From Chitinophagales bacterium (GTDB lineage: Bacteria > Bacteroidota > Bacteroidia > Chitinophagales > Saprospiraceae), in NCBI GenBank assembly GCA_026928325.1, contig JAIXKS010000037.1, positions 46,711-110,710 on the forward strand: 64,000 bases of DNA. Direction: 5' to 3'. The notes below the pieces were generated by a model that saw only the letters and a list, made by a program, of their open reading frames with translations, was not told where the DNA came from and did not search any database. Positions within the stretch are counted from its first letter, which is position 1. Each line of letters opens with the position of its first letter. This document shows positions 33,956-50,512 of the stretch, one piece after another. A program made the position numbers and the translations under genes.

Positions 33956-34580
33956 ATGATTATGCGCTCCACAAAATACTCAACAAAGAACCTTTTAAAA
34001 TCAATGAATGGAATGCATCCAATAAAGCTTTTAGGATTGATAATTATCGGGCTTGCTGTCGGTTCTTCATTGAAGGCCCAAGTCTCACAAATTGATGATT
34101 ACATTGGCATTGGATCAGCTTGACAAACCTTCGTCTTTCCTGATCAACTCGAATGGAAAAAGAATAAGGCTGCATTATTATTTTATGTTTGGCGGCAATG
34201 TAGGCTATGCTCTTGTGAATAATAGAACCTTTTTGATTAGTCCGGTTGCAGGGCTGGGTCTCAACATTTTAACTTCTTCGCCCTTTCCTAGCTCCAATGA
34301 TAACACTAATAACGAGCCGACCCTAGTATATTATAACTTGGGTGGCTTTATAAACATAAAACCCTTCCAGCTCTTTAGGAGGCGCTACTTGCTTAATGGT
34401 CAAGACATTCAGTATTCTTATTTGAGAATCAATGCGGGCGTCAAACAAGGTATTGTCAATACAAAATATCCGGAATACTATACAGGTTCTATGGTTTATA
34501 TCTCCTTGGGTTTGGGTGAATTTTATGGAAAGATGACTCCAGCATCGTTGGATTTATCGCCCGACGACCTTCCATACTAA
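33956..34580 (+). pseudogene. outer-membrane beta-barrel-like protein, frameshifted
   Basis: Two overlapping frames look like one broken gene. The first (33956-34123, 55 aa) carries a signal peptide (HPIKLLGLIIIGLAVGSSLKAQ) and then VSQIDDYIGIGS before a TGA at 34121. The second (open from 34092 to 34580, 162 aa, +1 frame) has beta-barrel character (FMFGGNVGYALVNNRTFLISPVAGLGLNI, then YYNLGGFINIKPFQLFRRRY) but no signal peptide of its own. A one- or two-base indel between about 34100 and 34125 would join them. A sequencing error would give the same picture. The alternative is that 34092-34580 is an intact short gene. Confidence 0.55.
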
Positions 34581-34756
34581 TCATATAATAACAACATAGC
34601 TCATCGATTCTATCACCTTCTATCCTATTGGAATTATCGCCCATTTCCTTATCAAATACACAGAATCAACGAAAAATCAATGACGTTCAAAAACCATTTA
34701 TAATCAGCACAATGAGGTCTTTGTCGCATTTTGTCTGAATTTTCGCAGGAAAGCCT

Positions 34757-34764
34757 TACCTTTG
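34757..34764 (+). promoter_or_regulatory. -7 promoter element for the DEAD-box helicase gene
   Basis: TACCTTTG, with TTTG at 34730-34733 (23-nt spacer). The ATG at 34792 follows after a leader of about 20 nt. Confidence 0.5.
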
Positions 34765-34791
34765 TAGCCATTAATATCGTAATATCGCTGG

Positions 34792-36126
34792 ATGACCTTT
34801 AAAGCATTTAATCTAAACAATCCATTGTGGAACGCATTGGATGACGCCGGTATCTCTATACCCACACATATTCAAAAAGAAACCTTTCCGGTGATTATGT
34901 CCGGACGAGATGTTCTAGGAATAGCTCAAACAGGTACAGGAAAAACGCTGGCTTATCTCCTACCGTTGCTCAAATTATGGAATTTCAACAAAACCAGACA
35001 CACGTCAGTACTGATCATCGTACCTACCCGAGAACTCGTAATCCAAGTTGTCGAAACTGCTGAAATGCTCGCAAAATACATGAATGTTGTCGTTCGTGGT
35101 GTATATGGTGGCACCAACTTAAAAACACAAGCTTACGAACTTGCCGAAGGTTGCGATATCTTGGTCGGAACGCCAGGAAGATTGTTGGATCTAGGATATC
35201 ACGGTTCCTTAAACTTAAAATCCATCAAAAAACTGGTTATTGACGAAGTGGATGAAATGCTTTCACTAGGTTTTAGAAGCCAATTGCAACACATTTTCGA
35301 CCTCCTACCAGAGAAGCGCCAAAACTTGATGTTTTCTGCTACGATGACCGACGATGTAGCGCAATTGCTCGAAGATGAATTTAACAATCCAGAAAGTATC
35401 GAAGCCGCACCTTCAGGAACACCGCTAGACAATATCCATCAACTCGCTTACAGAATACCTAACTTCAATACAAAACTCAATTTGCTGGATATATTATTGG
35501 ATGCCCATCCCGAAATGACCAAAATATTGATGTTCGTATCGACCAAGGCACTCGCAGATGCATTATTTCACCGGATGGAAGAAAAGCACGAAGGAAAAAT
35601 CGGAGTCATCCACTCCAATAAAGATCAAAATTATCGTTTTAATGCCGTAAATAGCTTTAAAAACGGCTCCTACCGAATGCTTATAGCAACGGATATTGTC
35701 GCCCGTGGTATAGATATAGAAGACGTATCCCATGTGATCAATTTTGACCTACCCGAAGAACCACAAAATTATATTCACAGAATCGGAAGAACCGGAAGAG
35801 CCGATAAAACAGGAGAAGCCATCACTTTTATTAGTGACTTTGACACCGAAAAGCACGCAGCTATCGAAGATTTTATGTCCTATGTTATCCCACAGCAACC
35901 ACTACCCGAAAACTTAGAAATATCGGATATACTCATTGAGGCCGAAAAGCCGGAAATAAAAATGAAAAACGTCTTAATCAAACTACCACAAGTAGGAGAC
36001 AACAGCGCCTTTCATGAGAAAAAATCTAAAAACCAAAAAGTAAATATAAAAATCCGCTACAAAGACAAAATGATGGCCAAATACGGCAAGCCCAAGACAA
36101 GAGGTCAAAAAAAGAAGAAAAAATAA
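34792..36126 (+). CDS. DEAD-box RNA helicase
   Basis: This 444-aa ATP-dependent RNA helicase probably acts in ribosome assembly or RNA decay. Motifs in order: Q-motif region NPLWNALDDAGISIPTHIQKETFPVI, motif I AQTGTGKT, Ia PTRELVIQV, Ib GTPGRLLDL, motif II DEVD (in place of DEAD), motif III SAT, motif V ATDIVARGIDI and motif VI HRIGRTGRA. The tail after about residue 400 is strongly basic (KYGKPKTRGQKKKKK), as in RhlE-like proteins, and would aid RNA binding. The Ala to Val change in motif II should be tolerated, since the metal-binding Asp-Glu is intact. Confidence 0.93.
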   Translation: MTFKAFNLNNPLWNALDDAGISIPTHIQKETFPVIMSGRDVLGIAQTGTGKTLAYLLPLLKLWNFNKTRHTSVLIIVPTRELVIQVVETAEMLAKYMNVVVRGVYGGTNLKTQAYELAEGCDILVGTPGRLLDLGYHGSLNLKSIKKLVIDEVDEMLSLGFRSQLQHIFDLLPEKRQNLMFSATMTDDVAQLLEDEFNNPESIEAAPSGTPLDNIHQLAYRIPNFNTKLNLLDILLDAHPEMTKILMFVSTKALADALFHRMEEKHEGKIGVIHSNKDQNYRFNAVNSFKNGSYRMLIATDIVARGIDIEDVSHVINFDLPEEPQNYIHRIGRTGRADKTGEAITFISDFDTEKHAAIEDFMSYVIPQQPLPENLEISDILIEAEKPEIKMKNVLIKLPQVGDNSAFHEKKSKNQKVNIKIRYKDKMMAKYGKPKTRGQKKKKK

Positions 36127-36166
36127 ATGGGTGAAATTGACAGGTAGTAACTTCTTGTTAGCTAGC

Positions 36167-36328
36167 TAGTGTAGCGTCCATAAAAAGACTTAAATTATAA
36201 TGGAAGTTATTTTTTTAAAGATCAAGGCGAAAAACGCAGGCATAGTGGTAACTATGGTGAGTATTTTTAACGATGAGATTTAAAAAACAACAAGATTTCA
36301 TTAAGATCCTTTTGTTGACGGAGCACAA
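36167..36328 (+). repeat. MITE-like element, copy 4
   Basis: This 162-bp copy has decayed ends (TAGTGTAGCGTC and GACGGAGCACAA) but a well-kept interior, including CATAGT-GGTA-ACTATG. It lies between the DEAD-box helicase gene and the restriction island, about 155 bp before the flanking repeat of that island. Confidence 0.88.
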
Positions 36329-36408
36329 GTCATTACGCATACGAAGCATACTTTTAAGTACGGTGAAAGATTCATAAAGGATACTTTCAGGTGGTTATAA
36401 GAAGAGTA

Positions 36409-36440
36409 TTTGAATATTTATAAGAGTTTGCTTATATTTG
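36409..36440 (+). promoter_or_regulatory. promoter of the hsd island
   Basis: TTTG (36409-36412), a 20-nt spacer and TATATTTG (36433-36440), an exact Bacteroidota promoter. The predicted leader to hsdR (ATG 36562) is about 115 nt and contains the flanking repeat at 36484-36536. Confidence 0.7.
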
Positions 36441-36483
36441 CGTGTTATGAGCGTACAATTATACCTTTCCTTGTAAAATATAA

Positions 36484-36536
36484 AACGACACAACTCGTAT
36501 AACAATTTTAAAACCAGAACTCCGTATTTTAACAGG
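36484..36536 (+). repeat. left flanking direct repeat of the restriction island
   Basis: Two blocks recur in the same order beyond hsdM. AACGACACAACTCGTAT (36484-36500) resembles 47082-47098 (14 of 17). The block 36508-36536, with core GAACTCCGTATTTTAAC, resembles 47131-47161 (24 of 29 plus a 2-base gap). It may mark the limits of an inserted module. Confidence 0.5.
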
Positions 36537-36561
36537 CTAATATTGATTACAGTTTAATATA

Positions 36562-39339
36562 ATGACTAACCAAAACCCGGAACAAATAGCAAGAGACAAC
36601 ATCGACAAGCAGTTGATTGCTTGTGGCTGGATCATTCAAAGCATCAAACAAATTAATTTGAATGCTGGTATTGGAGTTGCTGTAAGAGAATATTTGACAG
36701 ATGTCGGTCCTGCCGATTATGTTTTATTTGTGGGCGGAAAACCTTGTGGTATCATTGAAGCCAAACGGGAAGAAGAAGGACACAGAATGAATGTTCACGA
36801 AGCACAAGGAGAAGATTATGCTAAGGCTAAATTGAAGCATCTCAATAATGAACCCTTGCCTTTTGTGTATATCAGTACGGGAGAAGTAACACGATTCACT
36901 AACTTCACTGACCCAAAACCAAGAGCCAGAGAAGTTTTTAGTTTTCACAGACCGGAAACTTTGAGAGAATGGCTAAAACAAGATAAATCACTTCGTAGAA
37001 GATTGTTAGATTTACCAATTTTGCATACGGATGGATTGCGAGATTGTCAAATCAACGCCATCACCAATCTTGAAAAATCTTTTAAAGAAAACCGACCGAG
37101 AGCGTTGGTTCAAATGGCAACCGGTTCAGGAAAAACATTTACTGCCATTACCACCATTTATCGTTTGCTCAAATATGCAAAGGCTAAACGAGTCTTATTT
37201 TTAGTGGATACCAAAAACTTAGGCGAACAAGCTGAACAAGAATTCATGTCGTTTGTGCCGAATGATGACAATCGTAAATTTACGGAATTATATAGTGTAC
37301 AACGGCTAAAATCAAGTTATATCGCTAGTGATAGTCAGGTTTGCATCAGCACTATTCAACGGTTATATTCTGTTTTAAAAGGAACAGATTTAGAAGAAAC
37401 CGCCGAAGAAGAAAATCCGAACGAATGGAAATATCAGCCTAAGGAAATTCCACCGATTGAATACGACCCTAAAATGCCGATTGAGTTTTTTGACTTTATC
37501 GTTATTGACGAATGTCACCGCAGTATTTACAACCTTTGGAAACAGGTTTTGGAATATTACGATGCGTTTGAAATCGGGTTAACTGCCACGCCCGACAAAA
37601 GAACGATTGGTTATTTCGACCAAAATTTGGTGAGTGAATATTCACACGAAATGGCAGTAGCAGATGGTGTAAATGTGGGGTATGATGTATTTATCATTGA
37701 TACCAAAGTCACCCAACAAGGTGCAACGATATGGAAAGGTGAATATATTGAACACCGTGAACGATTGACCCGAAGAAAACGAATGGAAATGCAGGATGAA
37801 GATGAAGCTTATTCCAAACAACAACTGGATAAAGATGTCGTTAATCCGAATCAAATCCGAACGATTATCCGCACATTCAAAGAATATTTACCGAGTATTT
37901 TCAAAGACCGATATGATAAAGACGGAAACTTTGAAGTGCCTAAAACCTTGATTTTCGCCAAAACCGACAGCCACGCCAACGACATTATTGATATTGTTAG
38001 AGAAGAATTTAACGAAGAAAATAAGTTTTGCAAAAAAATCACTTATAACAGTGAGGACCCCAAAAGTACGTTGGCTCAATTCCGAAACGATTATCATCCA
38101 CGCATCGCTGTAACGGTGGATATGATTGCCACTGGAACCGATGTAAAACCATTGGAATGTCTGTTGTTTATGCGTGATGTAAAAAGCAAAAACTACTTTG
38201 AACAGATGAAAGGTAGAGGAACACGCACCATTGATTTAGATAGTCTGCAAAAAGTTACACCAACGGCAAAGTTTACCAAAGACCATTTTGTGATTGTAGA
38301 TGCCATTGGCGTTACCAAAAGTTTAAAAACAGATAGTCGTCCGTTGGAGAAAAAACCGGGTGTTCCGTTGAAAGAATTATTACAAGCGATTGCTGTGGGA
38401 GCGAGAGATGAAGAATTGTTCACTTCTTTAGCTAACCGACTAACCCGATTAGACAAACAAATTTCCGAGAAAGAGAAAAAACAATTTGCTGAAAAAGCCA
38501 ATGGGAAAACGGTTTCACAAGTGGTAAAAGACTTGTTGAATGCATATAATCCTGATACCCTTGAAGATATTGAACACCAAGTCAGAACGGAAATGATGGG
38601 TGCGGCACCAGTAGAAATTGAAGCAGTGATTCAAGAAAAAACAGAGGCGTTGCAAAATGAAGCCGCAAAGGTTTTTACCGGTGAATTAAATTCATACATC
38701 GAAAATGTAAGAAAAGCTCACGAACAAAAAATTGATTTAACCAATCCCGATGAAGTCATTCAAGTGGGTTGGGACAAAGACAATGCTCAAAAAGCGGAAG
38801 AGTTAATCAGTAGTTTTGCAGAATGGATGTTAGAAAATAAAGATGAATTAACCGCTTTACAAATTTTCTACAACCAACCTTACCGCAGACGGGAATTGAC
38901 CTACACGATGATAAAAGAAGTGTTGGAAAAATTACAAACCGATAAACCTTTATTAGCACCTATGAATGTTTGGCGAGCCTACGAAACCTTAGACCAATGC
39001 AACGGTTCTCCCAAAAATGAATTGACCGCCATTGTTTCTCTGATTCGTAAGATTACCGATATAGATGCAACTCTAACGAGTTATGACAAAACGGTTGATA
39101 AGAATTTCCAAGAATGGATTTTTAAGAAAAACGCCGGACAACACAATGCTTTTAACGAAGAGCAAATGCAATGGCTGCGAATGATTAAAGATTATGTCAT
39201 CAACAGTTTTCATATCGAAAAAGATGATTTTGACTTGAATCCGTTCAATGCACAAGGCGGATTAGGGAGGTTTTATCAGTTGTTTGGAGAACAGACAGAA
39301 GAAATTATTAATGAATTAAATGAAGTATTAGCAGCGTAA
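36562..39339 (+). CDS. hsdR: type I restriction enzyme, R subunit
   Basis: HsdR is the ATP-driven DNA translocase and nuclease of a type I restriction system. The N-terminal nuclease domain shows the PD-(D/E)XK residues in VGPADYVLF (Asp52) and GIIEAKRE (Glu66, Lys68). The helicase part has Walker A MATGSGKT (residues 185-192), DECHRS, LTATPDKRT and MKGRGTRTI. A C-terminal helical domain follows (about 640-925). At 925 aa it is shorter than EcoKI HsdR but normal for this subgroup. It is the first gene of the island, with the kinase gene 17 bp downstream. The order R-S-M with inserted genes is unusual. Confidence 0.95.
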   Translation: MTNQNPEQIARDNIDKQLIACGWIIQSIKQINLNAGIGVAVREYLTDVGPADYVLFVGGKPCGIIEAKREEEGHRMNVHEAQGEDYAKAKLKHLNNEPLPFVYISTGEVTRFTNFTDPKPRAREVFSFHRPETLREWLKQDKSLRRRLLDLPILHTDGLRDCQINAITNLEKSFKENRPRALVQMATGSGKTFTAITTIYRLLKYAKAKRVLFLVDTKNLGEQAEQEFMSFVPNDDNRKFTELYSVQRLKSSYIASDSQVCISTIQRLYSVLKGTDLEETAEEENPNEWKYQPKEIPPIEYDPKMPIEFFDFIVIDECHRSIYNLWKQVLEYYDAFEIGLTATPDKRTIGYFDQNLVSEYSHEMAVADGVNVGYDVFIIDTKVTQQGATIWKGEYIEHRERLTRRKRMEMQDEDEAYSKQQLDKDVVNPNQIRTIIRTFKEYLPSIFKDRYDKDGNFEVPKTLIFAKTDSHANDIIDIVREEFNEENKFCKKITYNSEDPKSTLAQFRNDYHPRIAVTVDMIATGTDVKPLECLLFMRDVKSKNYFEQMKGRGTRTIDLDSLQKVTPTAKFTKDHFVIVDAIGVTKSLKTDSRPLEKKPGVPLKELLQAIAVGARDEELFTSLANRLTRLDKQISEKEKKQFAEKANGKTVSQVVKDLLNAYNPDTLEDIEHQVRTEMMGAAPVEIEAVIQEKTEALQNEAAKVFTGELNSYIENVRKAHEQKIDLTNPDEVIQVGWDKDNAQKAEELISSFAEWMLENKDELTALQIFYNQPYRRRELTYTMIKEVLEKLQTDKPLLAPMNVWRAYETLDQCNGSPKNELTAIVSLIRKITDIDATLTSYDKTVDKNFQEWIFKKNAGQHNAFNEEQMQWLRMIKDYVINSFHIEKDDFDLNPFNAQGGLGRFYQLFGEQTEEIINELNEVLAA

Positions 39340-39356
39340 ATTTTTATTTTTGTATT

Positions 39357-40160
39357 ATGATAAAAGAATGTAAAATACTTGAAGAAATAGCAGAAGGTGG
39401 GCAAAAAAAAGTATTTTTGGCTGAACACCCTGATGTTGGCAAGGTGGTTTTAAAAATAGGAGAAATAAGAAGCTTTACCTCACTTGAAAGAATAAAAAGA
39501 GAAGTAGAATTACTTACAGGGCTTGATTCAGAATATTACCCGAAACAGTATTATTTTAATATAGATGTGATAGCGATGAAGTTTGATATCATTGAACAAT
39601 ATATTGAAGGAAAAACACTTCGTGACTCAATGACGGAGTTTAATGATACTGAAAGTATTTTAAGGTTGATTTCGGAATTGATAAACGGACTTTCAATTAT
39701 TTGGGGAAGAAATATTGTTCACAGAGATTTGAAGCCTGAAAATATCATTATTAAACCAAATGGTCTGCCCTGTATTTTGGATTTGGGAATAGCAAGATTT
39801 TTAGATTTGGAGGCTTTGACCAAAACCATTTCGCCTATGGGACCTTGCACTCCGATTTATGCTTCTCCCGAACAGTTGACAAACAATAAAAACATAATTG
39901 ACCAACGAACAGATTTTTTTAGTTTAGGAATTATGGCTCTTGAATTATTTTTGGGAGTTCATCCTTTTGATCCCAATTATGTTAGAAACAAATTTTCAAT
40001 AGTGGAAAACATAATGCAAAATAATTATATTACTGAAATACCAACCGTGAAAAGTGATGAAAAGTTAAAAGCATTTGCTAAAAAAACACTACAAACTCAA
40101 CCTTTCAACAGGTTTCGGAATTTTAAAATTTTAAATGAATTCATCGCTAAAAATATTTAA
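39357..40160 (+). CDS. Hanks-type serine/threonine protein kinase
   Basis: This 267-aa soluble kinase consists only of a catalytic domain, with no membrane helix, PASTA or other sensor domain. Catalytic residues are all present: VLK Lys33, helix-C Glu49, HRDLKPEN (His122, Asp124), DLG (Asp142) and SPE (170-172). The glycine loop is altered (EGGQKKVF for GxGxxG), so nucleotide binding may differ. It lies 17 bp after hsdR and 2 bp before the next gene, hence one transcript with both. Possible roles are phosphorylating a restriction subunit or acting as its own toxin or sensor. Neither can be read from sequence. Confidence 0.9.
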   Translation: MIKECKILEEIAEGGQKKVFLAEHPDVGKVVLKIGEIRSFTSLERIKREVELLTGLDSEYYPKQYYFNIDVIAMKFDIIEQYIEGKTLRDSMTEFNDTESILRLISELINGLSIIWGRNIVHRDLKPENIIIKPNGLPCILDLGIARFLDLEALTKTISPMGPCTPIYASPEQLTNNKNIIDQRTDFFSLGIMALELFLGVHPFDPNYVRNKFSIVENIMQNNYITEIPTVKSDEKLKAFAKKTLQTQPFNRFRNFKILNEFIAKNI

Positions 40161-40162
40161 TT

Positions 40163-41329
40163 ATGAAAGTATATCATCAAACAGGATTTCGGGATAAATG
40201 GAATATCGAAAGTTATTCTTCAGGTGTTGGAGATGGTCTCATTTTTTCTCCAATAAATATTGATGCTGATAAATTATTGGCTTTAGAAACAGAACTTAAA
40301 AAAACAGGTTTCCTTGACCCTCAATTGTATTTATTAAATGAAGCTAAAGGAACTTTAGACACCTACCCATATTTCCCAGGAAATTTAAAACCCGATTTCA
40401 CAACACCTGATTTAGATAATAGCCATTTGCAATTGGCTAAACTTTGTGTTGATTACCAAATAGGAAATGAATTTGAATATTTAGTGATTCCCACCAGATA
40501 TTATGCAGATAATCCAACTAATTTTTTTGTACAAAGTTCGGATTATTTTGTAACACCATTCTGCGACTACATTAAAGAAAACACAATTGATAAAAAAGTC
40601 CTTTTATCGGTGATTGTGAAACCAATAATGCTAACCGATGAAGAAAAAAGAAACGAAATATTAAACTGGATTACAGGACATTTGGATATAGATGGCGTTT
40701 ACCTGATATTTGAAAATAATTTTACCAGTAAACAGATTAAAGATTTTGAATACCTATTAAATGTTTTAAGGTTCATTACAATTCTAAAAAATAATGAGTT
40801 GGAAGTTCATTTAGGTTATACAAACAATGAGGCTCTTTTGTATAGTATTGCTATGCCAGATTCTGTAACAGTGGGGTCTTATGAGAACTTAAGGTCATTT
40901 GGCATTAAAAGATTTCAGGATTTGGAAAAAAGCCCAATGAAGTCTCCAAATGCCAGATTGTATAGTTCAAAACTCTTGCAGTGGATTGATTATGAATATA
41001 TTCAAGCAATGAGAAGTTTGATAGCTGATTATAGTGATTATTTTGACGATTCGGAGTATAAACCTTTAATGTTTACGCCAGAATTTAAGTGGCATTTTGC
41101 AAAACCAGAACCTTACAAACATTATTTTTATGTTTTTGACAAGCAAATGAAAAACTTACCAGAATCGCAAGAAGAAAGAATAGAAATTATTAAAAACACA
41201 ATAAAAACTGCAATAAGCTTGTTTAAGAAAATAGAAGATGATGTCTTTTTAGATGATAACAGTGACGGATCACATTTGCCAACTTGGATAAATGTAATTA
41301 ACACTTTTAAAAAAGAAATTAGTCAGTAG
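40163..41329 (+). CDS. unknown protein of the hsd-embedded kinase trio
   Basis: The 388-aa soluble protein is acidic, with no signal peptide or membrane helix. I do not recognise the family. The alternation of strand-like and helix-like stretches in the middle (VLLSVIVKPIML, DGVYLIFENNF, LEVHLGYTNNEALLYSIAMPDSVTVGSYENL) would suit a TIM barrel, but no catalytic motif is certain. It starts 2 bp after the kinase stop and ends 2 bp before the nuclease-like gene, so the three form a tight unit. It could be the kinase target or a partner of the nuclease. The DNA is visibly more A+T-rich than the housekeeping genes. Confidence 0.8.
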   Translation: MKVYHQTGFRDKWNIESYSSGVGDGLIFSPINIDADKLLALETELKKTGFLDPQLYLLNEAKGTLDTYPYFPGNLKPDFTTPDLDNSHLQLAKLCVDYQIGNEFEYLVIPTRYYADNPTNFFVQSSDYFVTPFCDYIKENTIDKKVLLSVIVKPIMLTDEEKRNEILNWITGHLDIDGVYLIFENNFTSKQIKDFEYLLNVLRFITILKNNELEVHLGYTNNEALLYSIAMPDSVTVGSYENLRSFGIKRFQDLEKSPMKSPNARLYSSKLLQWIDYEYIQAMRSLIADYSDYFDDSEYKPLMFTPEFKWHFAKPEPYKHYFYVFDKQMKNLPESQEERIEIIKNTIKTAISLFKKIEDDVFLDDNSDGSHLPTWINVINTFKKEISQ

Positions 41330-41331
41330 TT

Positions 41332-41784
41332 ATGTTTGATACAGAATTAGATATGTCTAAACAATTTGAGAAGTATCTCAAATTGAACTTTGGTAATACT
41401 TTTATAAAGGAATATCAAGGATTGTTTGGTGTGCCTGATTTTCTATTTTATATTAAGCACGAAAGCGGAATTTCTATAATTTCTTTTGAACTGAAACTAA
41501 AGAATTGGAAAAGAGCTGCGAAACAGGCCTTCAGATATAAAAACTTTTCAAACATCTCCTATGTAGTTCTTCCTGAAAACACCCTACAAAATGCTTTGGC
41601 AAACATAGAATTATTTGAGAAATACAATATTGGATTAGCTAAATTTGATATCAATGGAGACTTTGAAATAGTATTTAAGCCCACGCCAAATCTTCCGTAT
41701 TCCGAAGAATTAAATAAAAGAGTTGTCAATTCTGTGGCTTCTAGCAGAAAAAAAACAAAGAATGCCGAAATATTCATTTCATAG
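41332..41784 (+). CDS. PD-(D/E)XK-like nuclease-fold protein
   Basis: The 150-aa protein shows a probable PD-(D/E)XK core: PD at 35-36 (FGVPDFLFYI), E53-L-K55 (ISFELKLKNW) and a trailing Gln65 in AAKQAFRYK. This is the pattern seen in small restriction-like nucleases and their inactive relatives. The tail is basic (RVVNSVASSRKKTKNAE). It is the third gene of the kinase trio, 2 bp after its neighbour. Its size suggests a single-domain nuclease or DNA-end-binding factor. Activity is inferred from the motif only. Confidence 0.75.
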   Translation: MFDTELDMSKQFEKYLKLNFGNTFIKEYQGLFGVPDFLFYIKHESGISIISFELKLKNWKRAAKQAFRYKNFSNISYVVLPENTLQNALANIELFEKYNIGLAKFDINGDFEIVFKPTPNLPYSEELNKRVVNSVASSRKKTKNAEIFIS

Positions 41785-41800
41785 TATTCAATCTGTATTT

Positions 41801-41884
41801 TGCTTAATTAGAAAAACGACAACGAATTTAAGTTATTGATAATCAATTAGTTTTTGCTTCATTAGAATAACGACAGAGCAATTA
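41801..41884 (+). repeat. imperfect 30-bp direct repeat in the spacer before hsdS
   Basis: The block at 41801-41830 (core tagaaaaacgacaacgaatt) recurs at 41855-41884 (core tagaataacgacagagcaat). The spacer from 41785 to 42154 otherwise holds only a doubtful 73-codon frame (41913-42134), whose end is made of the AATTAAAAATTA repeat. Confidence 0.5.
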
Positions 41885-42092
41885 AAAATTATAAATGACG
41901 AATTTAGAATAAATGAATAGCGAGAAAACAAATACAAATAGGAGCGTAATTTTATGTATCGACTTTATAACTAAAAAAGCAACTTCTCTCAAAGTTTTAT
42001 TTGACTGGAAATCTTTTTGTAACACAAAAAACAGTGTAATTCACTCATTATCAATGAAATGTTTATTTGACGGTTATTTGACTGGAGGAAAC

Positions 42093-42154
42093 AATTACGA
42101 ATTAAAAATTAGTGAACAACCGGAAGACAATTAAAAATTACGAATTAAAAATTA
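42093..42154 (+). repeat. AATTACGAATTAAAAATTA repeats at the hsdS start
   Basis: A 19-bp unit occurs identically at 42093-42111 and 42136-42154, the second touching the hsdS ATG at 42155. Related sequence occurs before it (about 41880-41895), inside hsdS at 42694-42725 and at its end (43340-43361). Low-complexity AATTAAAAATTA families of this kind are scattered in many Bacteroidota genomes. Confidence 0.75.
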
Positions 42155-43360
42155 ATGGACAACTGGAAAATTAAAAAACTCGGAGAGGTTTGTGATAAAA
42201 TTTCCCTCAATAAAATCAAGATTAAACAAAAAGAATATTTGATTGAGGGAAAATATCCGGTTATTGACCAAGGACAAGAATTAATTGGAGGTTATTTTAA
42301 TAATGAAGATTTGCTTGTACCTAATGAACCTCCATATATTATTTTTGGAGACCACACAAAAGTTAAAAAATTTATTCCTTTTAAATTTATCGCAGGAGCT
42401 GATGGAGTTAAAGTCTTGAAAGCCAAGAAAAATGTTAATCCAAAGTTTCTTTATTTTCTTTTACACACCATCAAAATTGAGAATAAAGGATATGCACGAC
42501 ATTTCCAATTATTAGAAAAAGAATCATTTTTATTTCCTGAAGATGAAAAGGTGCAGCAAGCCATCGTTTCCAAAATAGAAGAACTATTCAGTGAGTTAGA
42601 CCAAGGCATTGCAGCACTCAAAAAAGCACAAGAACAACTCAAAACCTACCGACAAAGTGTATTGAAATGGGCGTTTGAAGGAAAACTTTTGGCAATTAAA
42701 AATGAAGAATTAAAAATTAAAAATCAAAAAGAAGGAGAATTGCCGGAGGGCTGGGAATGGAAGAAATTGAAAGATATTTCAAGTGATGTTTCTGACGGAG
42801 ACCATCAGGCACCGCCGAAATCTGTAGAAGGCATTCCATTTATTACCATATCAAATGTCAACAAAATAACAGGCAAAATTGATTTCTCCGATACTTTCAA
42901 AGTTAATGTAGAATACTTTAAGAACTTAAAAGAAAACCGAAAACCGAAAATTGGAGACGTTTTATATACTGTTACAGGTTCTTTTGGAATACCAATTATA
43001 ATTGACTTTGAAAAGGATTTTTGTTTTCAGCGCCATATTGGGTTAATAAGACTTCTGCCTGAAATCAGTCAAAAATGGTTATATTATTTATTGCAAAGTC
43101 CTCAAATATATGCACAAGCAAAAGAAACAGCTACAGGAACAGCTCAAAAAACAGTTGCTTTAAATTCTTTAAGAAATTTCAATATTCCATATTGCTCTCA
43201 CACAGAACAGCACCTTATCGTCCAAGCCATCGAAAGTCGCCTGAGTGTAGCCGATAAATTAGCAGAAAACATCCACGAAAGTTTGCAAAAAGCAGAAACG
43301 TTACGGCAGAGTATTTTGAAGCAAGCGTTTGAGGGGAAGTTAAAAATTGGAAATTCGTAA
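42155..43360 (+). CDS. hsdS: type I restriction enzyme, specificity subunit
   Basis: HsdS chooses the DNA site for both methylation and cleavage. The 401-aa protein has the standard two halves. Target-recognition domain 1 (about 1-135) is followed by a conserved helix (KIEELFSELDQGIAALKKAQEQLKTYRQSVLKWAFEGKL). Target-recognition domain 2 (about 200-350) is followed by a matching helix ending AETLRQSILKQAFEGKL. The joint between the first helix and domain 2 is encoded by the AATTAAAAATTA-type repeat and reads IKNEELKIKNQKE, so the repeat has become a linker. The methylated sequence cannot be predicted. Confidence 0.95.
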   Translation: MDNWKIKKLGEVCDKISLNKIKIKQKEYLIEGKYPVIDQGQELIGGYFNNEDLLVPNEPPYIIFGDHTKVKKFIPFKFIAGADGVKVLKAKKNVNPKFLYFLLHTIKIENKGYARHFQLLEKESFLFPEDEKVQQAIVSKIEELFSELDQGIAALKKAQEQLKTYRQSVLKWAFEGKLLAIKNEELKIKNQKEGELPEGWEWKKLKDISSDVSDGDHQAPPKSVEGIPFITISNVNKITGKIDFSDTFKVNVEYFKNLKENRKPKIGDVLYTVTGSFGIPIIIDFEKDFCFQRHIGLIRLLPEISQKWLYYLLQSPQIYAQAKETATGTAQKTVALNSLRNFNIPYCSHTEQHLIVQAIESRLSVADKLAENIHESLQKAETLRQSILKQAFEGKLKIGNS

Positions 43361-43370
43361 TTGAAAGATA

Positions 43371-43988
43371 ATGGCTAAGAAAGAAAGTAATATTAACCCA
43401 ATACTGTCCAACCGTAAGGTGAAAATTATGGTAGGCTCAACCGTGTATGGCTTTGAAGACCAGTTGTCTCAAATCGTTGCTCAGTTAAATACCTTGGGAT
43501 ATGATGTGCTGAATTCTCATCACGGAAGTATCAAGGTTAATCCCAATTTATCTAATTTAGAAAATTGTTTGAAAGCAGTCGCTGAATGTGATTTGTTTTT
43601 GGGTATTATTCGACCTTATTGCGGGACAGACAAAATTGGAGAAAAGAATATCACATTCGAGGAAATTAAAGAAGCAATCCGATTGAAAAAGCCTTATTGG
43701 TTCTTGGTTCATCGGGATGTTGTTTATACCCGACTGCTTTTAAGGAAAATGAAATTAAAAAGTGGCGATGAAGTGGTTTTTACTGATAACCGATTGTTTG
43801 ACAAACTTTCGATTGAGATGTATGAATATGTTATAAAAAATCACATTCCTGTCACACTGCGTAATGGCAACTGGGCTCAAGAGTTTTATCGTTTGGACGA
43901 GATGATGGTTTATATCAATGCTCAATTTACTGACAAAGATTTCATTAATGAAATTTTAAACTTTAAAATCAACGAAGATGAAAAATAG
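43371..43988 (+). CDS. stand-alone DUF4062 protein
   Basis: The 205-aa protein matches the DUF4062 pattern: VKIMVGSTVYGFEDQLSQIVAQLNTLGYDV near the N terminus, then LKAVAECDLFLGIIRPYCGTD and ITFEEIKEAIRLKKPYWFLVH. The fold is related to TIR and nucleoside-deoxyribosyltransferase domains. In other proteins it is the N-terminal domain of large signalling ATPases, but here it is alone. It starts 10 bp after hsdS and overlaps the next gene by 11 bp, so the two should be translated together. Whether it has enzymatic activity or only senses a ligand is unknown. Confidence 0.85.
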   Translation: MAKKESNINPILSNRKVKIMVGSTVYGFEDQLSQIVAQLNTLGYDVLNSHHGSIKVNPNLSNLENCLKAVAECDLFLGIIRPYCGTDKIGEKNITFEEIKEAIRLKKPYWFLVHRDVVYTRLLLRKMKLKSGDEVVFTDNRLFDKLSIEMYEYVIKNHIPVTLRNGNWAQEFYRLDEMMVYINAQFTDKDFINEILNFKINEDEK

Positions 43989-45453
43989 TTTTATCATAGA
44001 AAATCTGTTGCAACAGAAAGAAGGCGTTCGTTTGGAGTTTATAGAACAACCAAACATTGATTCCATTGCTAAATCCATTACTTCATTTATTAATACCGAA
44101 GGCGGTGATTTAGTTATTGGGATTGATGGCAAGAAAAATGTGTTAGGAGTTGAAAATGCTCAACAACAATCCATTGAAATACAAAACATTTTGGTGGAAT
44201 CAATTAAACCGACTGCACCCATTTCAATTCAGGTAATCCCTTACAAAAAAAAGGATGTTATTTTAATCAGTGTTTGGGAGGGAGCAAAAAAACCTTATCA
44301 ATACAAAGGCTCCATTTACAATAGAATTGGAAAAACAACAAAAGCTACAAGTCCTGACAAACTTTCTCAACTTATTTTAGAGCGTAAGCAAGCTGATTTT
44401 CATTGGGAGCGAATGCCCGTATTGGGAGCTGAGATAGAAGATTTGGATGAAGTTGAAATTAAAAAAACAATCAAATCCTATCAGGAATATAGAAATAATA
44501 CAAATATAGAAGATGTTGAAGATTTTTTAATTCAGGTTGGACTGCTTCAAAATGGCAATATTACCAATGCCTGTATGTTATTATTTGGTAAAAACCCAAC
44601 TCGTTTTATCCCACAATCAAGGATTAGAATCACCATTTATCCTTCCAATATTTCCGGAGATCAGTTTTTAGATGATAAGATATTTGAAGGAAATGTTTTT
44701 AAAAATATCACTTCAATCTTTGATTATTTAGAAATCGTTTACGGTAAAAACCTATTGGTTAAAGGTCTTGAAAGAACTGAAAAAGCCAATTATCCGGTGT
44801 TAGCTATGCGTGAAGGTATCTTAAACGCCATTGTGCATCGTGATTATAATTCCGTGAAAGGTTTCCTTCAAATAGCTATTTATTCCGACCGAACAGAAAT
44901 CAGTAATTATGGCGCTTTACCTGACGGCATTACAATCGCTGATTTAAAAACAGAGCACAGTTCTATTCTTCGCAATCCTGATATTGCCCAAATGTGTTTT
45001 TATAGGAAATATATAGAAATGCTTGGAACAGGTACACAAAGAATGATTAGAGATTGCAAAGAAAATAAGTTTAAACTTCCTGTATGGAAGCAGAGCGATA
45101 ATGTTACTACTGTAATTTTCCCGGGTGTAGAACACAACAGAAAGGATCAGGCGATTGATGGCGTAGTAAATGGCGTAGTAAATGGCGTAGTAAATGACGC
45201 TGTAAAGAAAGGGATAATTGGCGCTGTAAATGACGTAGTAAATGACGTTCTAATTGAAATAATAAAAGCCCTAAAAATCAGTGAAGACGGAATATCCATA
45301 AATGAACTGACTTTAAACATAAACAAGTCACACAGAACAATGCAACGATATATCCAACTTTTGAGAACACTCGATTTAATAGAGTTCAGAGGTGCCCCAA
45401 AGACTGGTAAATATTATTTGACAGATGAAGCTGAGAAAAATTTGAAACAATAA
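43978..45453 (+). CDS. AlbA_2 (Schlafen-like)/RecG-related putative ATP-binding regulator
   Basis: The 491-aa protein begins with an AlbA_2 domain (about 12-130: GVRLEFIEQ, ITSFINTEGGDLVIGIDGKKNVLGVE). It continues with the GHKL-type ATP-binding segment usual in these proteins (LAMREGILNAIVHRDYNS, near residue 280, then GTGTQRMIRDC). It ends in a winged-helix domain (ISINELTLNINKSHRTMQRYIQLLRTLDLIEF). It is often labelled ATP-dependent DNA helicase but has no helicase motifs. A 12-bp in-frame tandem repeat (45160-45195 and decayed copies) encodes GVVN units just before the winged helix. The domain set suits a DNA- or RNA-binding regulator or effector in defence loci. Confidence 0.88.
   Translation: MKNSFIIENLLQQKEGVRLEFIEQPNIDSIAKSITSFINTEGGDLVIGIDGKKNVLGVENAQQQSIEIQNILVESIKPTAPISIQVIPYKKKDVILISVWEGAKKPYQYKGSIYNRIGKTTKATSPDKLSQLILERKQADFHWERMPVLGAEIEDLDEVEIKKTIKSYQEYRNNTNIEDVEDFLIQVGLLQNGNITNACMLLFGKNPTRFIPQSRIRITIYPSNISGDQFLDDKIFEGNVFKNITSIFDYLEIVYGKNLLVKGLERTEKANYPVLAMREGILNAIVHRDYNSVKGFLQIAIYSDRTEISNYGALPDGITIADLKTEHSSILRNPDIAQMCFYRKYIEMLGTGTQRMIRDCKENKFKLPVWKQSDNVTTVIFPGVEHNRKDQAIDGVVNGVVNGVVNDAVKKGIIGAVNDVVNDVLIEIIKALKISEDGISINELTLNINKSHRTMQRYIQLLRTLDLIEFRGAPKTGKYYLTDEAEKNLKQ
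45160..45255 (+). repeat. in-frame 12-bp tandem repeat
   Basis: GGCGTAGTAAAT occurs three times exactly (45160-45171, 45172-45183, 45184-45195). Decayed units follow at 45196-45207, 45220-45231, 45232-45243 and 45244-45255. Each unit encodes G/D-V/A-V-N, so changes in copy number keep the frame and alter linker length. Confidence 0.9.
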
Positions 45454-45462
45454 TTACCAGAC

Positions 45463-45536
45463 TTACCGGATACAAAAACAAAAAGCAATGAAAACAAGGC
45501 TTTTATAACACAAACAAATTACCGGATATTACCGGA
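45463..45536 (+). promoter_or_regulatory. three TTACCGGA sites before hsdM
   Basis: TTACCGGA occurs at 45463-45470, 45519-45526 and 45529-45536 in the 97-bp gap before hsdM, the last two 10 bp apart. The number of copies in so short a gap suggests a binding site for a regulator, or methylation sites. No promoter match is convincing here. Confidence 0.35.
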
Positions 45537-45550
45537 ATAAAATAAAAAAT

Positions 45551-47035
45551 ATGAGCAACAATACATCTTCAATCGTCAGTAAAGTATGGAGTTTCTGTAA
45601 TCCTCTACGCGATGTAGGCGTAGGATACGGTGATTATTTGGAACAACTTACTTATTTGCTTTTCCTGAAAATGGCAGATGAATACAGCAAACCGCCACAC
45701 AACCGAGAACTGCCTATTCCAAAGGAATATAATTGGGAAAGTTTGACCAATAAAAAAGGGGCAGAATTGGAATTGCATTATGTGCATTTGCTTCGTGAAT
45801 TGAGTAATGCCAAAGGAATTTTGGGGCAAATATTTACCAAAAGTCAAAACAAAATCCAAGACCCTGCAATGTTGGCAAAAATCATTGATATGATTGACAG
45901 CGAACAATGGCTAGTTTTGGGTGCTGATGTGAAAGGCGATATTTATGAAAGACTCTTGGAGCAAAACGCACAAGATGTCAAAAGTGGTGCAGGACAGTAT
46001 TTTACGCCTCGACCTTTGATTCGGGCGATGGTGGAATGTGTTCAACCAAAACCGATGAAAACCATTGCCGACCCTGCTTGCGGAACAGGTGGTTTCTTCT
46101 TGGCTGCTTATGATTATATTGTCGAAAACAACAAACTCAATAAAGAACAAAACCAATTTTTGAAATTGGAAACGTTTTTTGGAAATGAGATTGTTGCCGG
46201 GACCAGACGATTGGCTTTAATGAATTTGTTTTTACACAACATCGGCGACATCGAAAGCGATAACTTTATTTCTCCTGCCGATGCCTTGATTGCTGCTTCG
46301 CCCATCACTTATGATTATGTTTTAGCTAATCCGCCATTTGGAAAAAAGAGTTCGCAAACCTTTACCAATGAAGAAGGCGAGTTGGAAAAAGACGATTTAA
46401 CCTATAACAGGCAAGACTTTTGGGCGACTACAAGTAACAAACAATTGAATTTTGTGCAACATATTCGTTCGATGCTTAAAACGACCGGAATGGCGGCAGT
46501 GGTTGTTCCAGACAATGTTTTGTTTGAGGGTGGTGCCGGCGAAACCGTTCGTAAAAAATTATTGGAAACCACCGATTTACATACCATTTTGCGTTTACCA
46601 ACAGGTATATTTTATGCACAAGGTGTAAAAGCAAACGTAATTTTCTTCGATAACAAACCGGCAAGCAAAGACCCGTGGACAAAAGAGATTTGGGTGTATG
46701 ATTACCGAACCAATATCCATCATACCTTGAAGAAAAATCCGTTGAACATTGAAGTTTTAAGAGATTTTATCGAATGTTACCAAGCCGAAAACAGAAACAA
46801 ACGTACAGAAACCTATCACCCGGAAACCAATCCTGATGGGCGTTGGAGAAGGTTCACTTATGAGGAAATCATAGCGAGAGATAAAACAAGTTTGGATATT
46901 TCTTGGCTCAAAGACCAGTCTTTAGCAGATTTGGACAATCTTCCCGACCCTGATGAATTGGCAGAAGAAATTATTGAAAATTTGGAAGCAGGATTGGAAA
47001 GTTTCAGAGCGATAATATCGTCTCTAAATAAATAG
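45551..47035 (+). CDS. hsdM: type I DNA methyltransferase, M subunit
   Basis: HsdM transfers a methyl group from S-adenosylmethionine to adenine N6 at the site chosen by HsdS. The N-terminal HsdM domain (about 5-135, LRDVGVGYGDYLEQLTYLLFLKMADE) precedes the N6-methylase domain, with motif I DPACGTGGF (174-182) and motif IV NPPF (260-263). The 494-aa length is normal. It is the last gene of the island, separated from hsdS by the DUF4062 and AlbA_2 genes. Confidence 0.96.
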   Translation: MSNNTSSIVSKVWSFCNPLRDVGVGYGDYLEQLTYLLFLKMADEYSKPPHNRELPIPKEYNWESLTNKKGAELELHYVHLLRELSNAKGILGQIFTKSQNKIQDPAMLAKIIDMIDSEQWLVLGADVKGDIYERLLEQNAQDVKSGAGQYFTPRPLIRAMVECVQPKPMKTIADPACGTGGFFLAAYDYIVENNKLNKEQNQFLKLETFFGNEIVAGTRRLALMNLFLHNIGDIESDNFISPADALIAASPITYDYVLANPPFGKKSSQTFTNEEGELEKDDLTYNRQDFWATTSNKQLNFVQHIRSMLKTTGMAAVVVPDNVLFEGGAGETVRKKLLETTDLHTILRLPTGIFYAQGVKANVIFFDNKPASKDPWTKEIWVYDYRTNIHHTLKKNPLNIEVLRDFIECYQAENRNKRTETYHPETNPDGRWRRFTYEEIIARDKTSLDISWLKDQSLADLDNLPDPDELAEEIIENLEAGLESFRAIISSLNK

Positions 47036-47081
47036 AACAAATATGATAGTAAAGCATAACAACGTCAATAATAAAGTTTAG

Positions 47082-47161
47082 AACGAGACAGCTCGAATCG
47101 ATACCAAGTTTTTGTATCTGGCAGAATGACTTAAAACACTAGAACTTTGTATTTCAACTGG
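47082..47161 (+). repeat. right flanking direct repeat of the restriction island
   Basis: AACGAGACAGCTCGAAT (47082-47098) and the block 47131-47161 (core GAACTTTGTATTTCAAC) match the blocks before hsdR in order and orientation, with about 25 extra bases between them here. The rest of the 297-bp gap after hsdM holds no gene. Confidence 0.5.
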
Positions 47162-47231
47162 AGTTTTTCGTTCCGAAACTTGCACAAATACCCTAAAATC
47201 TGCCAGACCCTAGCCAAAAAAACATATAATC

Positions 47232-47273
47232 AAAAAAAAGTGGCAACCTGCTTACATGCTGGTTAGCCACTTT
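47232..47273 (-). terminator. intrinsic terminator for the tyrosine phenol-lyase gene
   Basis: AAGTGGC-AACC-tGC pairs with GC-tGGTT-aGCCACTT around a short loop. On the minus strand the stem is followed by a run of T (complement of 47232-47239). It lies about 60 nt beyond the stop codon. Confidence 0.85.
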
Positions 47274-47332
47274 CATAAAATCGCTTCGTTATATTTTCTA
47301 TTACCTTTCTTGATATAGCGATCTACTTTCTA

Positions 47333-48742
<1,410 letters not shown>

Positions 48743-48982
48743 TTAAGACATTTTTGTCTTATTAACAAAACGAAGGTATTCCTGTTTATCAAATCTGTAT
48801 GACTTTCGTCATATTAATGTCAATTTAAACCCAATAATTATCCCGAAATTATTCAATTGCACATAAGTTTAAATTCACCCAATGGCATCCTTGCAAATGC
48901 TGTCATCCAACATGCGAACAGCTCTATTCCTAATAATGGGTTAAATTCATGCCTTGAATGTCACGATTTTCAGATAAAACTC

Positions 48983-48990
48983 TAATTTTG
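48983..48990 (+). promoter_or_regulatory. -7 promoter element for the lipoprotein gene
   Basis: TAATTTTG matches TAnnTTTG and lies 29 nt before the ATG at 49020. The nearest TTG upstream is 26 nt away. The remainder of the 310-bp gap (48710-49019) shows no gene. Confidence 0.45.
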
Positions 48991-49019
48991 CATTTCTAAA
49001 ACCTAAAAACATAAAGCAC

Positions 49020-49529
49020 ATGAAGCAATTTCTTATATTTTGTCTTGCCTTGACATTATTTGCATGTAAAAACACGCCCGCTACTACTAGCGAACCAGCG
49101 GTTTCCAATGAAGTACAAACAGAGCAAGCGGCACCAACCGTAGAAGCAAATTCTAATGATAAACCCTCTATGGCCGATGCTGGTCAATATGTGGGTAAAA
49201 AGCCGTCTGAAGTTGACCTTTTCAGCAAATACAACTTGGAAAACCGAATTGAGCAAATGTTGAAAGGAGAATATCAAAATTTCGTAGAAAGCCGTACCGA
49301 AGAATCTGTGATTAATAAAGACGGAGAAATTCTGTATTTCGTCGTTTGTAAAGCATCCAGCTGCCCGGCCAACAAATATTTTGTTATTTTGGATATGTTG
49401 GATAGCAATGTCAATGTCATTTCTATAAGAGGTAATCTCCCAAAAAGTTACGAAGAATCCGCTATCATTGGTATGACGGATAAGATTGCTAATTATTTTC
49501 AAAGAACACTAGGATCTCCAAAAATATAA
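49020..49529 (+). CDS. putative lipoprotein of unknown function
   Basis: The 169-aa protein has a lipoprotein signal (MKQFLIFCLALTLFAC, Cys16 as the acylated residue). A low-complexity Thr/Ala/Glu-rich linker (about 18-50) precedes a globular domain containing VCKASSCPANKYFVILD, with two Cys that could form a disulfide. It is probably anchored in the envelope facing the periplasm. I do not recognise the domain. It stands alone between the tpl gene and a convergent DUF4249 gene. Confidence 0.8.
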   Translation: MKQFLIFCLALTLFACKNTPATTSEPAVSNEVQTEQAAPTVEANSNDKPSMADAGQYVGKKPSEVDLFSKYNLENRIEQMLKGEYQNFVESRTEESVINKDGEILYFVVCKASSCPANKYFVILDMLDSNVNVISIRGNLPKSYEESAIIGMTDKIANYFQRTLGSPKI

Positions 49530-49549
49530 GCACGAAATCCTTTTTTTAA

Positions 49550-50512
49550 CTATTTCGGCGGACAATAAAGGCGATATACACGAACGGTATAGCCACCCCA
49601 AATCCCAAGTCCTCCTTGAATATTGGAGGTTACTCTCGTGTAGGACGAAAAGGAACCACTATTGGCAGCAGCATAATCTCGAGTATTCCAAAAGTCAAAA
49701 TGGGCTTTGTCTATCGTACACCATTTGATGTATGCACTATCTCCTCGTACATAGAGACCAAAAGTGTCCGGATCAAAGTCTCCGTTTCGCCTTTGGGCAC
49801 GTTGTAAAGGTATCTCGAAAGCCTTGCCATTAAATATTGCATCGTCAATCACAGACCCAAAAGGTGGTGGTATAAACTGTCTGTCTCGTTCTGTTGCCGT
49901 CAAGTATCGATAAAAATTAGCTTCTTCTGCCGGATCTTCAACCATCACCCTTAATTCAGCCATTGTATCAATAGCTAATCCTGCCGGCTCGACCCATTTG
50001 AAATCATATAAGTCAACACCGCTAGGAAGCGTTGTCGTAGCTGTCAATATCTGATCATCAACCTTCACCGTCAAATCGTATCGCCGACCTTCTGCTCTTA
50101 TCAACTGGTCAGCCAGATCGATATAGACACAAATATTGGATTGCAATGAATCTGTATTGATGCCGAGCAGCTCTCCAGCTTTCTTTTTGATGTCGTCCGG
50201 TAGATCCTGCAAACACAACGCTGTAAATTGTACGGTTTGATCGCCATCGAACACGGATACCTCCGCATTTTTTACAAATAAATCGCCAAAATCTTGCCCA
50301 TCTATAGAGGCAATAAAAGGAATGCTCTTCGTCAAAAACACGTAAGCTGGTAGCGAGCCAATCCCAGTTTCAACATAGCCTTCGACCACGATTTGCGGCT
50401 CATATAGGGATGTATCTGGTGTAAATGGCTCTTCACACGATACAAACACGACCATCGCAAACAAAACGAAGCTCCAATACTTCAAAATATCGGTATTTTT
50501 GATCTTAATCAT
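49550..50512 (-). CDS. DUF4249 outer-membrane lipoprotein
   Basis: This 320-aa lipoprotein has its signal at the N terminus (YWSFVLFAMVVFVSC) and the DUF4249 opening CEEPFTPDTSLYEPQIVVEGYVETG. Later parts (VYIDLADQLIRAEGRRYDLTVKV, TATTTLPSG) are usual for the family. Such proteins are encoded next to TonB-dependent receptors and are thought to be accessory lipoproteins of the transport complex. It overlaps the receptor gene upstream by 8 bp, so the two are translationally coupled. Confidence 0.9.
   Translation of the reverse strand: MIKIKNTDILKYWSFVLFAMVVFVSCEEPFTPDTSLYEPQIVVEGYVETGIGSLPAYVFLTKSIPFIASIDGQDFGDLFVKNAEVSVFDGDQTVQFTALCLQDLPDDIKKKAGELLGINTDSLQSNICVYIDLADQLIRAEGRRYDLTVKVDDQILTATTTLPSGVDLYDFKWVEPAGLAIDTMAELRVMVEDPAEEANFYRYLTATERDRQFIPPPFGSVIDDAIFNGKAFEIPLQRAQRRNGDFDPDTFGLYVRGDSAYIKWCTIDKAHFDFWNTRDYAAANSGSFSSYTRVTSNIQGGLGIWGGYTVRVYRLYCPPK

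Follow-up and report, generated by a model that had tools for sequence, protein, structure and literature searches.

Defence genes inside type I restriction-modification (R-M) operons are already known, and so is a DUF4062 NADase. PrrC, RloF and TgvAB are encoded by genes embedded in type I R-M loci (PMC12707154; PMC11411939). DUF4062 proteins have been described as TIR-like NADases, and one of them, KpSwz (Swarozyc), acts in abortive defence, is activated by the phage portal and needs its active-site Glu (2026 preprint, PMC13174449). AlbA_2 domains have been found fused to or beside argonautes (PMC6299218). The locus described here lies in a stretch of 64,000 nucleotides from a Chitinophagales bacterium (contig JAIXKS010000037.1; hereafter the window) and is a type I R-M operon of the order hsdR-hsdS-hsdM (R-S-M) that carries five additional genes. 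Three of them, coding for a Ser/Thr kinase, a 388-amino-acid (aa) protein and a 150-aa PD-(D/E)XK-like protein, are located between hsdR and hsdS (module 1, or the trio), and two, coding for a DUF4062 protein and an AlbA_2/Schlafen protein, between hsdS and hsdM (module 2). With a probability of roughly 0.6, we propose that this is an R-S-M operon with two slots filled by separately acquired modules, most likely of immunity: a kinase-controlled nuclease in the first and an abortive NADase pair in the second. The anatomy of the locus, the recurrence and independence of its modules, the movement of module 1, and the predicted folds and conserved residues of the proteins are described below.

The HsdM subfamily of the window (E <= 1e-150) is present in 37 of 395 genomes of the phylum, the window's own included, and in one of ten genomes of the same genus, again the window's own. 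Its 38 places yielded 35 fetched loci, with the own locus, G071 and G350 dropped; hsdM was not called in two of them and a usable hsdS was lacking in six more, leaving 27, of which 21 have hsdR. Both hsdR and hsdS are found upstream of hsdM and on the same strand in 21 of the 35 relatives, a count of upstream genes only, and hsdS precedes hsdM in 27 of the 35 fetched places. None of the four genes downstream of hsdM bears an hsdR or hsdS label in the 33 loci read in that direction. The R-S-M order, which an earlier note on this DNA had pointed out, is therefore the usual one for this HsdM family. The window HsdR shares 46-79% identity with the long HsdR open reading frames (ORFs) of related R-S-M loci. 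One or more ORFs of at least 100 aa occupy the slot between hsdR and hsdS in 17 of 21 loci, three of these cases being a single small or opposite-strand ORF (L083, L089, L105), and the slot between hsdS and hsdM in 13 of 27, bearing in mind that a slot ORF is not a proven gene. These ORFs number 59 and fall into 38 clusters. Eight of ten ORFs chosen for a Pfam scan matched a family, namely Fic (two ORFs), GmrSD_N, PDDEXK_4, DUF5131, GMT-wHTH, Y1_Tnp and YhcG. Fic, GmrSD_N, YhcG and PDDEXK_4 are types linked to defence. BLAST with the window genes found module 1 in none of the HsdM-family loci and module 2 in one (L078, the same place as L063).

Two further observations concern the slots as insertion sites. 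Transposase genes of the IS200/Y1 type are located in the hsdS-hsdM slot at L015:12871-13353 and L084:10775-11431, and two more ORFs cluster with that of L084. Comparison with the same-genus genome of most alike flanks gave no clean empty site; the flanks are 25 kb apart in that genome, with apparent housekeeping genes between them.

The two modules are independent of each other. The earlier note had read the five accessory genes as one or two modules travelling with the restriction system, and had proposed to look for the same set elsewhere. The notion of added modules stands, as there are two of them that recur in type I loci, and co-occurrence of the accessory genes with hsd genes in other genomes was found for both separately. 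The single five-gene set did not hold up: none of 25 module 1 loci, several of them on short contigs, has a DUF4062 or AlbA_2 relative, and the search for recurrence of the whole set returned no second case. L063, which comes from the same taxonomic order as the window, has hsdR-hsdS-DUF4062-AlbA_2-hsdM and thus the arrangement of the window without module 1. Travel with restriction is true in part, for the window and 4 of the 25 module 1 loci and for 5 of 12 module 2 regions, and is not seen for 13 of the 14 module 1 loci with long flanks. In the window, a 370-bp spacer divides the extra genes into two runs, and the matching gap, measurable in three relatives, is 8-10 bp there.

The 25 module 1 loci come from a scan with one genome per species, the window being kept separate, and the 388-aa family was gathered by two peptide patterns located in its most conserved stretches; L025 duplicates L002/L005, and L029 duplicates L003. 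The 388-aa protein is present in 2 of the 395 genomes of the phylum, one of them the window's own, and on two plasmids, an archaeal one (Natribaculum breve) and one of Polaromonas. The PD-(D/E)XK-like gene adjoins the 388-aa gene in all 25 loci, and the kinase gene lies directly upstream in 24 of them, as a partial gene in L014; the contig of the remaining locus begins within the 388-aa gene. A reciprocal search with the 150-aa protein matched 4 of 395 genomes, in which the 388-aa family is adjacent in 4/4 and the kinase in 3/4. Among the places of the trio are Parabacteroides gordonii, where an integrase gene (named by eye) adjoins it, and Ignavibacteria, as well as a short contig that is filed under Aenigmatarchaeota but may be misbinned. 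The whole trio is also found in L004 (plasmid) and in L006, a viral, phage-like contig where it lies among phage structural genes (gene names by eye). Searches of a phage collection with two 388-aa family members gave no match, and further plasmid searches gave no additional trio. The barrel frame of L022 stops early (335 aa).

Three layouts of module 1 can be distinguished. The first, kinase-barrel-nuclease, is that of the window and L007-L023. In the second, shared by 6 of 25 loci, kinase-barrel faces a nuclease-PP2C pair; the PP2C partner occurs in these 6 of 25 loci, as judged with a query that came from a locus that it then matches, and the copy of L025 is matched by Pfam PP2C_2 (1.3e-6). 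The third, nuclease-kinase-barrel, is that of L029, L030, L004 and L006. On the archaeal plasmid, a metallophosphatase-like gene (L029:11177-11866, named by eye) directly follows the trio and perhaps substitutes for PP2C.

The kinase has the motifs VLK at residues 31-33, HRDLKPEN from 122 and DLG from 142. The 388-aa proteins belong to no curated family. Pfam gave a chance-level match (0.094) for the 388-aa protein and none for the 150-aa protein, and the former had no match in NCBIfam, PADLOC or PHROG. At most 3 of 24 members matched any one family, and no Pfam, NCBIfam or PADLOC 2023 match was consistent (0.0026 at best, in single members); the two members tried against PHROGs had no match there. 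Its AlphaFold2 model is a TIM barrel, with a mean predicted local distance difference test (pLDDT) of 86.4 and a predicted template-modelling score (pTM) of 0.89. Foldseek relates this model to many TIM-barrel enzymes with no clear nearest one (query TM <=0.40, among the 50 listed). The 150-aa protein is modelled with a pLDDT of 92 and in the helix-strand order of the PD-(D/E)XK fold, and Foldseek places BamHI, AF2093 and FokI among its top PDB matches (best E 4e-3), some of the matches not being nucleases. The nuclease alignment of 26 sequences (23 of the 25 loci, L012 and L014 being omitted, with the window, L006 and L004) shows E5, E27, G33, D36, E53, K55, L56, Q65, F95, G101 and L102 as invariant, and thus contains the D...ExK motif of PD-(D/E)XK nucleases, with D36, E53, K55 and Q65 in 26/26. 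The nuclease model was built from 23 rows (L012, L014, L015, L023 and L004 omitted). Members from layout 2, as well as L029 and L030, have an extra stretch that winged-helix models match in some of them. Sequence searches of the PDB with the 388-aa and nuclease families returned nothing convincing.

Module 1 moves in and out of hsd loci, since its hsd-borne copies require at least three forced changes on the tree. Besides the window, 4 of the 25 loci (L015, L018, L019, L021) have it inside an hsd locus, and its place there, to the extent that the contigs cover it, is between hsdR and hsdS; L019 and L021 are cut by contig ends, and L019 has a short ORF between hsdR and the kinase gene. On the tree of 21 barrel proteins (window, L007-L024, L026 and L031), the 'in hsd' label changes state four times, and at least three changes are forced by well-supported branches, although the short contigs L008, L014, L017 and L022 could carry a wrong label. 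Both states are mixed in two pairs: L009 (no hsd) groups with L015 (hsd) with a support of 99/97, and L021 (hsd) with L007 (no hsd) with 96/90. The label does not cluster on the tree, as 170 of 500 shuffles scored as low. Module 1 also resides in mobile settings, namely the plasmids L003/L029 and L004 and the phage-like L006, and it has a recombinase gene nearby in L010, L020 and L030 and a relaxase gene in L026 (names by eye). In L010 (2786-6489) the trio has an ArdC-like antirestriction gene and a gene for a tyrosine recombinase in its vicinity (names by eye). The hsdS-hsdM slot of L021 (2425-4066) contains, instead of DUF4062-AlbA_2, genes for an AAA_21 (AbiEii-like) ATPase and a 169-aa protein.

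Of the 395 genomes, 24 have a DUF4062 relative, a count that includes the genome of the window. The DUF4062 domain is recognised by Pfam (9.8e-11), with 42.1 bits for PF13271 against a cut-off of 24.7. The second protein matches SLFN_AlbA_2 (1e-17), HATPase_c_4 (2e-18) and, at its C-terminal winged helix, HrcA_DNA-bdg (1e-4), and its profile matches solved Schlafen proteins (best 1.7e-7). An AlbA_2 relative follows DUF4062 in 23 of 29 loci; of the 32 matches listed besides that of the window, 29 had loci, L043 and L061 overlap, and three queries of this adjacency search derive from loci that they then match. Twelve regions, mostly of best matches, were read with longer flanks, and both genes are intact in 11 of them and in pieces in the twelfth. 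An hsdM relative is near in five (L062, L063, L065, L066, L071). Glu98, whose position is TIR-like, is invariant in 11/11 members of the DUF4062 family. A single DUF4062 sequence found no match in a PDB search, and the family profile aligns weakly with the KpSwz chain 10wc_A (E 0.024, about 100 residues). By analogy with its described relative, the DUF4062 protein is likely a TIR-like NADase, so that the pair probably includes an NAD-destroying enzyme. L046 and L048, from two genomes of one family, have DUF4062-AlbA_2 in pieces, as if the pair were being lost.

The mechanism proposed here, which in every signalling step and in its anti-phage role we infer from folds, gene neighbours and one published relative, is the following. 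Restriction would act first, and the modules would add layers when a phage passes it. In module 1, the Ser/Thr kinase would receive a signal of infection or damage, and its phosphorylation would switch a complex of the TIM-barrel protein and the PD-(D/E)XK nuclease. The barrel protein could act on a small molecule or nucleotide as an enzyme or could sense it; the nuclease, once switched, would cut nucleic acid. In one lineage the PP2C phosphatase would reset the kinase switch; the PP2C gene of the sister layout agrees with the phosphorylation reading. In module 2, the AlbA_2/Schlafen protein may bind nucleic acid as a sensor or repressor, and the DUF4062 TIR-like NADase, when released, would empty the NAD+ pool, leading to an abortive outcome.

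A bolder and more tentative proposal, which we place somewhat below even odds, is that the trio constitutes an immune system, as yet without a name, found in both Bacteria and Archaea. Its kinase, opposed by PP2C in one lineage, would arm the nuclease by way of a TIM-barrel enzyme, whose task would be to produce, read or eliminate either a small molecule or a modified base, and the system, borne by phages and plasmids, would be repeatedly loaded into a two-slot type I operon as an interchangeable payload. No description of the trio was found in the open-licence literature, which was searched with a few wordings and does not by itself prove it unpublished; this part may deserve its own name.

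Several results weigh against these proposals. In the 388-aa family (alignment of 22 of the 25 loci, L015, L018 and L021 being omitted, with the window and L006), 10 of 11 invariant residues, the initiator Met aside, follow the C-terminal end of a strand by no more than 14 residues, a zone that takes in 34.5% of all positions, but 7 of the 11 are inside the collecting patterns and inflate this count; three of the remaining four also follow strand ends. Much of the invariance is thus built in, because the patterns lie in the most conserved stretches. Model confidence is low for the conserved loop 242-260. The fold matches of the 150-aa protein are weak, none reaching E 0.001 or better, and PADLOC models match none of the 388-aa, 150-aa and DUF4062 proteins. 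In L136 (5028-7343) the kinase is missing, and a PIN-domain gene separates the relatives of the barrel and nuclease genes, the barrel relative being the weakest of four (E 5e-11). In module 2, the six most distant DUF4062 matches (L050-L055) are not accompanied by an AlbA_2 relative, and the E 0.024 alignment puts a KpSwz Glu two columns from the invariant Glu98. As to restriction itself, 13 of the 14 module 1 loci with about 10 kb on both sides (L007, L009, L011, L012, L013, L016, L020, L023, L024, L025, L029, L030 and L031; L015, with hsd, is the exception) showed no relative of the hsd genes when compared by BLAST with those of the window, a search that could miss another hsd type, and 7 of the 12 module 2 regions have no relative of the window hsdM by the same means, some contigs being cut. 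Because of these two counts, a link of the modules to failed restriction is not indicated.

The alternative that survives best, although we consider it unlikely, is passive hitch-hiking, in which the slots would be permissive insertion points for unrelated cargo, toxin-antitoxin-like or from mobile elements, with no functional tie to restriction. The great diversity of the cargo and the transposase genes in the slots of L015 and L084 agree with it, yet five of the ten scanned slot ORFs are of defence-linked types (Fic twice, GmrSD_N, YhcG and PDDEXK_4), and the genes run in the hsd direction, a few bp apart. It would also explain why module 1 is mostly outside hsd loci and why the 'in hsd' label clusters at chance level; however, module 1 entered or left such loci more than once and, to the extent that the contigs show it, in the same slot.

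It could also be argued that one or both modules guard restriction, sensing inhibition of HsdRMS and then killing the cell as PrrC does with EcoprrI. The gene of PrrC lies within a type I locus, and the protein becomes activated when Stp inhibits the enzyme (PMC12707154); module 2, with an NADase-type effector, lies between hsdS and hsdM. Nevertheless, most module 2 regions read lack an hsdM relative, module 1 is usually apart from hsd genes, and the trigger of KpSwz is a phage portal and not restriction (PMC13174449), so this reading was dropped as the main one and is rather improbable. There is a slimmer chance that the AlbA_2/winged-helix and kinase genes control hsd expression and are not defences; the HrcA-like C-terminal domain and the winged helix-turn-helix insert of some nuclease-family members would suit such a role, but both modules occur where no hsd relative is seen. 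Least probable of all, and also dropped as the main reading, is that the kinase is a defence kinase of the PD-T4-6 or MADS type with incidental neighbours: its best PADLOC matches are indeed PD-T4-6 (2e-32) and MAD6 (1e-31), but it is far under the NCBIfam cut-offs (84.9 of 460 bits for MAD6, 98.1 of 720 for MAD2 and 34.4 of 400 for MAD5), and the same partners adjoin it in 24 of 25 loci.

The features of the locus are listed in the table. The eight-gene order proposed in the earlier note is borne out by the ORF listing and the Pfam names, all genes being on the + strand, and its gaps of 17, 2, 2 and 10 bp and overlap of 11 bp proved exact.

Features of the R-S-M operon and its two cargo modules in the window
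Feature	Coordinates	Strand	Length	Description
hsdR	36562..39339	+	925 aa	type I restriction subunit; HSDR_N nuclease, ResIII/SWI2 translocase, EcoEI_R_C; Pfam and PADLOC matches
module 1 gene 1, Ser/Thr protein kinase	39357..40160	+	267 aa	Pkinase 6.5e-29
module 1 gene 2, unnamed family	40163..41329	+	388 aa	predicted TIM barrel, C-terminal helices
module 1 gene 3, PD-(D/E)XK-like	41332..41784	+	150 aa	alignment, AlphaFold2, Foldseek
spacer between module 1 and hsdS	41785..42154	+	370 bp	four AATTAAAAATTA repeats
hsdS	42155..43360	+	401 aa	two target-recognition stretches; Methylase_S
module 2 gene 1, DUF4062	43371..43988	+	205 aa	likely TIR-like NADase; PF13271
module 2 gene 2, AlbA_2/Schlafen + RecG-C/HATPase_c_4 + winged helix	43978..45453	+	491 aa	Pfam
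hsdM	45551..47035	+	494 aa	N6-adenine methyltransferase subunit; N6_Mtase 4.6e-67, HsdM_N

The three hsd genes are complete open frames with the domains expected of a type I system: HsdR combines nuclease (HSDR_N 3e-7), translocase (ResIII 9e-41) and C-terminal (EcoEI_R_C 2e-41) domains, HsdM is an N6-methyltransferase, and HsdS has two recognition stretches in Pfam (Methylase_S 7e-22). The spacer before hsdS contains the 12-mer AATTAAAAATTA at 41880, 42100, 42129 and 42143, the last copy reaching the hsdS start, and a fifth copy at 42708 lies inside hsdS, approximately where the linker between the two recognition stretches is encoded. A 25-mer of this repeat has a single occurrence in the genome. 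An ORF of the spacer (41913-42134, 73 aa) is without evidence of being a gene.

If these proposals are true, module 1 is an uncharacterised kinase-nuclease immunity module with an uncurated TIM-barrel family, present in Bacteria and on an archaeal plasmid, and one restriction operon family of the window's phylum is a two-slot cargo site. Reading the hsdR-hsdS and hsdS-hsdM gaps would then be a simple route to further defence genes, and the newly described DUF4062 NADases would be linked to a Schlafen-type partner.

Compared with known systems, the kinase resembles PD-T4-6, MADS, Mokosh (MkoA) and BREX PglW in its Ser/Thr kinase domain and defence setting, whereas the partners differ. No NCBIfam cut-off is reached. 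The window kinase does not fit a stand-alone PD-T4-6 kinase, whose domain it matches, as it lies in a trio. The family sce7726 (NCBIfam NF033832) is a weak relative of the PD-(D/E)XK-like protein, matched by 5 of 26 members (best 8e-6), but the 150-aa protein itself scores 12.9 bits against a cut-off of 70 and is not assigned to it. Viral models named TGT (queuine tRNA-ribosyltransferase) occupy ranks 2, 4, 8 and 32 of the BFVD fold search with the 388-aa barrel, at a query TM of 0.33-0.42; identity with TGT was discarded, as the hhalign probability is 0.1 or less with 17 TGTs (17 of 18 used). The AlbA_2 protein matches PADLOC pAgo models (best 1.8e-25), and the list of ORFs from 34000 to 50500 (80 aa or longer) includes no argonaute gene. 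With Swarozyc, the window shares the DUF4062 domain, above the PF13271 cut-off. KpSwz, however, is a single protein of 326 residues in its chain, with an auxiliary domain, whereas the window protein has 205 aa and a separate AlbA_2 partner. The C-terminal auxiliary domain of KpSwz is lacking in the window protein, the profile covering chain residues 4-101 of 326. The catalytic Glu of KpSwz is E97 in the numbering of the preprint; the invariant Glu of the window's family is E98, and the alignment has a KpSwz Glu two columns off. The main text of the preprint contains no 'AlbA', 'Schlafen' or 'restriction' (PMC13174449). TgvAB, RloF and PrrC are GmrSD-type or anticodon nucleases, whereas the window trio and the DUF4062-AlbA_2 pair are neither; what they have in common with the window is the arrangement, as independent defence genes placed inside an hsd operon, with RloF located, like the trio, between hsdR and hsdS (PMC12707154; PMC11411939).

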